Origin: Flavobacteriales bacterium
Lineage (GTDB): Bacteria; Bacteroidota; Bacteroidia; Flavobacteriales; Flavobacteriaceae
DNA length: 64,000 nt
NCBI GenBank assembly: GCA_004213995.1
Contig: SGZJ01000005.1
Coordinates: 1-64,000 of the forward strand
Direction: 5' to 3'
The position numbers and the translations under genes were made by a program. The notes beneath the pieces are model-generated. The model made no database searches and was not told where the DNA came from. It was given only the letters and a program-made list of their open reading frames with translations. Of the stretch, positions 4,464 to 6,907 are shown in pieces. Position 1 is the stretch's first letter; each line of letters starts with the position of its first letter.

Positions 4464-4874
4464 ATGTATCCTGCAGAATTAGTTAAACCAATGAGAGAAC
4501 AACTTACCGTTAATGGATTTAAAGAGATGTTTTCTGAAAAAGATGTGGATGATTTGATAGAAAAAAAAGGTACAACTTTAATTGTAGTTAACTCAGTTTG
4601 TGGTTGTGCAGCAGCTAATGCAAGACCTGGAGTTATTGCAAGTTTATCTAATTCTAAAACTCCAGCTAATTTAGCCACAGTATTTGCAGGGGTAGATAGA
4701 GAGGCTACTGATAAAGCCAGATATCATATGGCGCCATTCCCTCCAAGTTCTCCTTGTGTAGCGCTATTTAAAGATGGCGAATTAGTTCATATGCTAGAAA
4801 GGCATCATATAGAAGGTAGACCGGCAGAATTAATTTCTGAAAATTTACAAAACGCTTTTAACGAGTACTGTTAG
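4464..4874 (+). CDS. BrxA/BrxB family bacilliredoxin
   Basis: VVNSVCGCAAANARPG (CGC active site) and overall YphP/DUF1094 pattern. Confidence 0.92.
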   Translation: MYPAELVKPMREQLTVNGFKEMFSEKDVDDLIEKKGTTLIVVNSVCGCAAANARPGVIASLSNSKTPANLATVFAGVDREATDKARYHMAPFPPSSPCVALFKDGELVHMLERHHIEGRPAELISENLQNAFNEYC

Positions 4875-6907
4875 TTATAAAAAAGCTTGTCTAAAGTTAA
4901 TTTTTGAGACAACCTATTTAAGTTAATCACACTAGTTTTGCTAATTTCATTATCTCTACCATAGTTTTTATAAACTGTGTATTTTAAAAATGTAGGGTTA
5001 ATGTCTGACTCTATACTAAAAGTATCAATATTTATAAGCCATTCTCCTTTTTGAGAATCATCAATTATAAATTCTTCTGTATTATATCCGAATTTAATTT
5101 CATCTATTAATTGATCTTTGTTTTCAAATTTAGTGTGAGACCAATTAAAGAATTTTTTAGAAGGACTAACAAACTGAACGTTAAACTCAATGTTAGAATC
5201 ACTCCAATCAAAAACAACTCTATAATCGTACCCAAAGTCTTTTGGTCTGATAAAAGTTTTTTGATTTATATTTTTATTCAGGTCTATATTAGGAAGTATA
5301 TTTTTTAAAACATCTATTGGAAAGTTTTTAAAATCAAATGCGTCTCTATTGTTGCTGTATAAGTGGTAGGCTTCATTAGCAATTGTCTTTTGAAGACCCA
5401 AAACTTCAACTTCATCAATCTGATTTAACAGAATTTTTTTATAAATATCAGCAGCCAAAACATACTTTTTATTTTTAGAATATATTAAAGCTAAATCCCT
5501 GTAAGATTGTTCATGATAGGGTCTTATTTTAAGTAAGTGCTCATAGACTAATTCAGCATCAAGATTTCTGTCAATTGACTCCATTTTATATGCCAATGCT
5601 TTTAAAGCTTTTGGGTTACTCTTGGCAGAAATAACTGCATCAGTAAGAATATAAAAAGCAAAATCATCATTCCACCTTTTGAAGTAGTCGTAACAATCAA
5701 AATAATACGGCAAGGATTTAAATTCTAAATTAGAAGTTTGCTTTATATATATCTCTTTAGCATTTTCAAAAGAAAATGCTTCTTCTAATTCCTTTATATA
5801 TTTAGAGTTATTTTCAAAACTAATCATCCCTAATTCCTCCTCATAATCATTCCCCTTAATTAAGGCAGAATCAAGAGTTTGAGAAGATCCTTTATACAGA
5901 CTATTCATTCTAATTACAAAAACACCACCTCTACCCACACTCCCGTATCTGTTTGTCGCTCCATAAGATTTTAATATGGTTATACTTTCAATTTGTTGGG
6001 CGTTAATAAAATTAGGAAAGTCCTCAAATATTAGTCCGTCAACGTCATATATTGCATAGGCAGGGGTATTCATTGAGCCAGTTCCACCTCTTATTGTAAT
6101 TCTTGGAGTGTCATAACCTTCTATTCTAACTCCTGCAAATTTCCCTCTAATTACATCAACCAAGCTAGTTGCCCCTGCAGAAATGTCTTTTTTTGTAATT
6201 GTTGAATTAGAAAACCCAACGGCATCTTTATTTTTTCTGCCATATCCTGTATCTACTAAATTGTCTTCATTTTTATTTGTTGAAGATAAAACCACCTCGT
6301 CTAATATTTGTGCTTCTGTTTTTAATAAAACATATAAATCATCAAAATCTTCTACAACAGTTTGTTTTTCTATCATTCCTAAATAGTTAACCACTAGAAT
6401 ATCTCCAACTTGAGCGTCTATATTAAAATAACCGTCAAAATCAGACTGGGCTTCAACAAGTGAATTTTTAATTCTTATAGTTGCTCCTTGAATTGGTCCG
6501 GAGACACTAAACACTTTTCCGAATAAATTAGGCCCAGATTCATCTATTGTACTTAGAGATAAATCCTTAACCCAGCTATTGGTATTATCATCACGTTGTA
6601 AGTAAAATTTATTTGTATTTCTTAAAAACTTATATAATTGTGAAACTTTTATTTCTATAGTTTTAAATCCTTTTGCGTTAATTACAAACACATCATCGTC
6701 ATTAATTAGCTTTTCATCATACTTTAAATTAAAGACTCCTGAGTTGCTAGTAAAAGCACCAATTTTAGTGTACTTAAAATTTACATTTGCCAGGCTTATG
6801 GGCTTGTTAGTCTTTTGATCAAGGACTGAAGCTTTTATATTAATTTGATATTGAGAGAAAATAAAATTGCAACAAAGAAAAAATAATAAAAATATTTGTT
6901 TATTCAT
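4871..6907 (-). CDS. Barrel-less TonB-plug/carboxypeptidase-regulatory-like domain protein with TPR region and possible DUF2135-like C-terminus
   Basis: Signal peptide; two CarboxypepD_reg-like segments; plug-like ITKKDISAGATSLVDVIRGKFAGVRIEG...RITIRGG...IESITILKSYGATNRYGSVGRGGVFVIRM; TPR-like helices; C-terminal GYNTEEFIIDDSQKGEWLINIDTF. Confidence 0.75.
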   Translation of the reverse strand: MNKQIFLLFFLCCNFIFSQYQINIKASVLDQKTNKPISLANVNFKYTKIGAFTSNSGVFNLKYDEKLINDDDVFVINAKGFKTIEIKVSQLYKFLRNTNKFYLQRDDNTNSWVKDLSLSTIDESGPNLFGKVFSVSGPIQGATIRIKNSLVEAQSDFDGYFNIDAQVGDILVVNYLGMIEKQTVVEDFDDLYVLLKTEAQILDEVVLSSTNKNEDNLVDTGYGRKNKDAVGFSNSTITKKDISAGATSLVDVIRGKFAGVRIEGYDTPRITIRGGTGSMNTPAYAIYDVDGLIFEDFPNFINAQQIESITILKSYGATNRYGSVGRGGVFVIRMNSLYKGSSQTLDSALIKGNDYEEELGMISFENNSKYIKELEEAFSFENAKEIYIKQTSNLEFKSLPYYFDCYDYFKRWNDDFAFYILTDAVISAKSNPKALKALAYKMESIDRNLDAELVYEHLLKIRPYHEQSYRDLALIYSKNKKYVLAADIYKKILLNQIDEVEVLGLQKTIANEAYHLYSNNRDAFDFKNFPIDVLKNILPNIDLNKNINQKTFIRPKDFGYDYRVVFDWSDSNIEFNVQFVSPSKKFFNWSHTKFENKDQLIDEIKFGYNTEEFIIDDSQKGEWLINIDTFSIESDINPTFLKYTVYKNYGRDNEISKTSVINLNRLSQKLTLDKLFYN

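Follow-up and report, generated by a model that had tools for sequence, protein, structure and literature searches.

The window, by which we mean the whole stretch of 64,000 nucleotides analyzed here from a marine Flavobacteriaceae genome, carries on its minus strand a gene for a barrel-less plug protein (Table 1). An earlier sequence-only reading had delimited this open reading frame, and its extent was confirmed exactly. Upstream lie genes for an enoyl-CoA hydratase, a histidine kinase, and a UPF0093 protein. Downstream, a disulphide-isomerase-like gene is convergent with the plug gene and overlaps it by 4 bases. In terms of operon logic, these window neighbours provided no functional clue.

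Table 1 Coordinates of the window gene, its parts, and related features at other loci
Feature	Locus	Positions	Strand	Basis
Complete ORF of the barrel-less plug protein (678 aa plus stop codon)	Window	4871-6907	minus	ORF call, orthologues
Signal peptide, residues 1-19 (MNKQIFLLFFLCCNFIFSQ), type I-like, without clear lipobox	Window	6851-6907	minus	Predicted, read from sequence
First CarboxypepD_reg-like (NTE-type) domain, residues 21-106	Window	6590-6847	minus	PF13715 (two stretches); model strands 21-112
Second CarboxypepD_reg-like domain, residues 128-200, equivalent of the SusC NTE	Window	6308-6526	minus	Pfam, Foldseek 9hfj
TonB-box-like hexapeptide LDEVVL, residues 202-207	Window	6287-6304	minus	Motif scan; cf. 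VDEVVV of Bt1763
12-residue insert, residues 208-219, between TonB box and TGYG	Window	6251-6286	minus	Alignments
SusC-type plug, residues 220-336, ending YGSVGRGGVFVIRM	Window	5900-6250	minus	PF07715; SusC-plug HMM, 94 bits; structure
TPR-like helical region, residues 355-540	Window	5288-5845	minus	Model helices 355-537; TPR Pfam matches in relatives
DUF2135-like beta tail, residues 559-678	Window	4874-5233	minus	Homology to Pfam-positive tails of relatives
Disulphide-isomerase-like gene	Window	4464-4874
VIT-vWA-TPR-DUF2135 protein with TonB C-terminal domain in slot	L118	444-3671	minus
VIT-vWA-TPR-DUF2135 protein with TonB C-terminal domain in slot	L119	441-3680	minus
VIT-vWA-TPR-DUF2135 protein with TonB C-terminal domain in slot	L120	437-3688	minus
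531-aa protein	L040	9224-10819
Plug-only protein	L057 (G000 contig C3)	4866-5270

Domain composition and conservation of the window protein

The two CarboxypepD_reg-like modules and the plug proposed by the sequence-only reading were borne out by Pfam and by Foldseek searches with a structure model, and a signal peptide is likewise predicted on inspection of the sequence. CarbopepD_reg_2 matched in two stretches (best E 2.6e-17), and Plug (PF07715) matched residues 230-329 with 31.9 bits compared to a cut-off of 23.9. For the SusC family TIGR04056, whose cut-off is 368 bits, the score was 112 bits and the match covered residues 130-386 only; just the first quarter of this NCBIfam model was matched. 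The PDB sequence matches were likewise SusC chains, over residues 128-366. Alignments showed that TGYG directly follows the TonB box in SusC, whereas the window protein has its insert at this place. Pfam detected no barrel family; there was no match to PF00593, and the ORF is missing from the PF00593 list of the genome. TPR remained below threshold in Pfam (E 0.057), but AlphaFold models the region as helices, and relatives do give matches to TPR families. The term DUF2135-like, although the domain falls below the Pfam threshold in the window protein, proved right by homology, because the tail, divergent as it is, aligns end to end with the Pfam-positive DUF2135 tails of relatives.

Neither VIT nor vWA domains were found by Pfam and family classification, and no membrane anchor was recognised in the protein. 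Pfam also gave no match to Por_Secre_tail, and a T9SS cargo was rejected on account of this absent sorting tail. Within our best explanation, the window protein is predicted to be periplasmic, since it has a putative signal peptide and the T9SS tail is absent. The SprA-bound Plug of the T9SS (6H3J) was also rejected as an identity, as it is not among the PDB sequence matches at E up to 1.

The full-length AlphaFold model, of low confidence (pLDDT 57) and too weak for judging domain packing, shows the succession beta, beta, plug, helices, and beta, without a barrel. A model of residues 123-342, comprising the NTE and the plug, reached moderate confidence (pLDDT 69); the TonB-box segment has no defined structure in it. 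In Foldseek this model matched the SusC NTE 9hfj with a TM-score by target of 0.87-0.88, as well as the plug end of the SusC structures 8aa4 and 5fq6 and other TonB-dependent transporters. The earlier statements that the barrel is missing and that the protein is not an ordinary TonB-dependent transporter are upheld by these data.

Intact orthologues of the window gene were found in three other genomes of the genus (93, 93, and 81% identity). They encode colinear proteins of 676-682 aa, have the same neighbours, and come from independent assemblies (SI036_bin70, AG-313-E13, and FRAM18_bin211), and a chimeric assembly is ruled out for this reason. A fourth genome of the genus, which is 72% complete, yielded no full-length copy. 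Pairwise dN/dS was about 0.07 for the whole gene, indicating purifying selection; the plug gave 0.03-0.08 and the tail, where computable, 0.01-0.04, with dS being saturated in some of the comparisons. The plug is under strong constraint despite the missing barrel.

A modular family in the Flavobacteriaceae

Profile searches with the TPR-DUF2135 half gave matches in 100 of 301 sampled Flavobacteriaceae genomes and in 39 of 393 genomes sampled across the phylum. Among 109 classified family members, a plug is present in 100 and a barrel in none, each member terminating in the TPR-DUF2135 half used to find it. The plug count leans on homology, because some of these proteins had served to train the plug profiles, but the Pfam Plug model confirms most members tested with it. 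The plug-bearing members comprise 46 NTE-plug, 18 vWA-NTE-plug, and 22 VIT-vWA proteins with plug, 5 NTE-vWA-NTE-plug proteins, 2 others, and 7 with the NTE-NTE-plug order of the window protein. Homologues of the same domain order, which the sequence-only reading had proposed to look for, exist within the family. The suspected connection to VIT/vWA proteins is also real, in that larger relatives carry vWA or VIT-vWA N-terminal to the same C-terminal half. The window protein is no singleton, but belongs to a large, modular family of the Flavobacteriaceae.

The location of the window gene, with the enoyl-CoA hydratase and disulphide-isomerase-like genes beside it, is common to G016 and G240, another genus, where the copies measure 1005 aa and 659-681 aa. 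Short plug-TPR-DUF2135 copies form tandem arrays elsewhere; we observed five NTE-plug-TPR-DUF2135 genes in a row at L123, the maximum, and four each at L124 and L125. According to neighbour names assigned by eye from sequence, short copies are usually flanked by an M24-type peptidase gene near menE on one side and by an acyl-CoA carboxylase gene on the other. A CarboxypepD_reg protein of ~380 aa, which begins with a domain of the same kind as the first one of the window protein, co-clusters with them (L042, L123, L124, L130, and L132). In other genomes (L040 and others) its N-terminal part forms the front of a fused protein, and the first CarboxypepD_reg domain of the window protein may have been left over from such a fusion.

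Further proteins were noticed at these and other loci. A 531-aa protein without Pfam match is encoded in G016, where the two plug-bearing genes flank it, and is present in G240 as well (L131). Four genomes of the window genus encode plug-only proteins of 134-135 aa (L054, L055, L056, and L057) that carry a lipobox-like FGC/FSC and are 58-62% identical to the window plug. A long gene of secreted type precedes the plug-only gene at a distance of 2 nt. The plug-only product is a second barrel-less plug and probably membrane-anchored.

The origin of the plug was addressed in a tree of 102 rows and 139 columns, which is weakly resolved. VIT-type plugs are intermixed with SusC plugs (joint group support 99), and the vWA, short, and window plugs fall outside this joint group. 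Since a single SusC clade was not rejected in the AU test (p 0.105), single and multiple captures of a SusC front end are both possible.

A possible link to the Ton system

TonB is the motor that opens outer-membrane transporters. Across the family, a strict TonB-box motif is found beside the plug in 77 of the 100 plug-bearing members, compared to 0.2 expected in shuffles. Some relatives have eroded TonB boxes, and a degenerate box persists in plug-poor VIT-vWA relatives, for example L064, L091, L092, and L096; in these and in L049 and L051 the plug is eroded and the linker keeps a TonB-box-like (D/E)E(V/I)V..GY. Nine of the 109 members lack a plug, and in three of these, from three genera, a TonB C-terminal domain replaces the plug cassette between vWA and TPR (Pfam TonB_C, E 1.9e-6, 2.3e-5, and 2.8e-4, the last being below the curated cut-off). 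Because the TonB C-terminal domain stands in for the plug cassette, the Ton system would be the common denominator of this slot. A candidate TonB is encoded in the same genome as the window protein; ExbB, ExbD, or TonB genes were not recognised by eye beside the inspected loci.

Mutations in the SusC protein Bt1763 showed that its NTE and its TonB box, VDEVVV, are both necessary (PMC7782687), and in other transporters TonB can partly unfold the plug under force (PMC5413942). With LDEVVL at the equivalent place of the window protein, these findings suggest that it may be a client or competitor of TonB. We therefore favour the reading of the window protein as a soluble periplasmic adaptor connected with the Ton system, to which we assign a probability of roughly 45%. 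The sequence-only reading had listed a periplasmic adaptor or a scaffold borrowing the SusC plug fold among its options, and this remains the best-supported of them. According to this model, the SusC front end of NTE, TonB box, and plug would have been kept and joined to a TPR and DUF2135-like body in place of the barrel. The NTE and TonB-box segment would bind the TonB C-terminal domain, the plug would be either a force-labile fold pulled open by TonB or a docking surface, and the TPR and DUF2135 parts would bind some partner, so that the protein would act as a non-transporting client of the Ton motor or compete for it. Pulling of the plug by TonB accounts for less than half of the probability given above. 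The joint retention of NTE, TonB box, and plug argues for the Ton-coupled adaptor, as do the TonB_C swap, the constraint on a plug that has no barrel, and the candidate TonB of the genome. Against it count the insert before TGYG, which is unlike SusC, the eroded TonB boxes of some relatives, the lack of recognised ExbB, ExbD, or TonB genes beside the inspected loci, the fact that the DEVV motif arrived together with the cassette and could have persisted through descent, and the small number of TonB_C swap proteins (three), one of them under the Pfam cut-off. A broader version appears rather unlikely to us, namely that the family consists of periplasmic TonB clients using the SusC plug as a force-operated switch on the TPR-DUF2135 body (in relatives together with vWA), while the TonB_C-bearing sisters would allow TonB-to-receptor coupling to be modulated from both sides.

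Alternative readings and known systems

The main rival is reuse of the fold without Ton coupling, in which the NTE-plug cassette would be only an interaction or spacer module on the TPR-DUF2135 body. SusC-type receptor genes are many and alike, which would make their 5' ends easy to capture; in the short forms, moreover, the insert separates the TonB box from the plug, and SusC-specific plug residues, among them alignment positions K100, A102, and R111, are relaxed there, in contrast to the retained fold residues. This explanation, which we regard as plausible but not probable, has against it the retention of the TonB-box motif far above chance and the three genera in which a TonB C-terminal domain occupies the slot. 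An envelope-biogenesis adaptor, acting in a BamP-like manner with BAM or SusC maturation via the CarboxypepD_reg domains, is distinctly less likely. Residues 127-222 weakly match BamP, a structural match was obtained to chain 9n2d_E, which belongs to the BAM complex of F. johnsoniae, and the SusC NTE has a role beyond transport (PMC7782687); however, the likeness is limited to the generic CarboxypepD_reg fold, and identity with BamP itself is rejected by a score of 29 bits against an equivalog cut-off of 230.

The sequence-only reading had also considered a decoy plug. The occurrence of free-standing plugs in the genus, including the 134-aa plug-only lipoprotein, would fit a plug that acts in trans by entering a TonB-dependent barrel without a plug of its own. 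This option is unsupported and very improbable, because nearly every TonB-dependent barrel has its own plug in the four genomes covered (G000, G002, and G004 being incomplete): a plug in the same frame accompanies 9/9 barrels in the window genome, 11/11 in G004, 8/8 intact barrels in G002, and 16/17 in G187. A decayed SusC gene or assembly chimera, as might be suspected from a start that is SusC-like and then diverges, has practically no probability left; it is refuted by the intact, colinear orthologues, the low dN/dS, and the 100 plug-bearing homologues.

Should plug-bearing, pore-less proteins indeed be TonB clients, the Ton motor would do work other than import in Bacteroidota, and the exchange of plug and TonB domain in one slot leads to a directly testable prediction. 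For annotation, a plug match without barrel in Flavobacteriaceae does not necessarily denote a broken transporter. Full-text searches of the literature outside subscription journals found no paper on this architecture and no function for the VIT-vWA-(TPR)-DUF2135 proteins. The description of the window protein as an undescribed component is qualified by its membership in a large family.

Among known systems, BamP of the Flavobacterium BAM complex (NF053692; PMC12611786) shares a CarboxypepD_reg-like domain with the window protein and no other region. Periplasmic vWA-fold force transducers working with Ton/Tol-like motors have been proposed (PMC12204202); vWA also occurs in relatives of the window protein, but these transducers are tethered to the inner membrane, whereas the window protein has neither vWA nor a recognised anchor. 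SusC/RagA proteins (TIGR04056) have the NTE (PF13715), TonB-box-like motif, and plug (PF07715) in the same order. They continue into a 22-stranded outer-membrane beta-barrel, whereas the window protein has a TPR and DUF2135-like body, an insert between TonB box and plug, and a predicted periplasmic location. The VIT-vWA-(TPR)-DUF2135 proteins of Bacteroidota have a homologous TPR and DUF2135 C-terminal half, and their larger members share the NTE-plug cassette as well, placed between vWA and TPR; the window protein differs from them by the lack of VIT and vWA and by one additional N-terminal CarboxypepD_reg domain. All modules are known, and their combination amounts to a SusC front end on a TPR-DUF2135 body of the VIT/vWA type.
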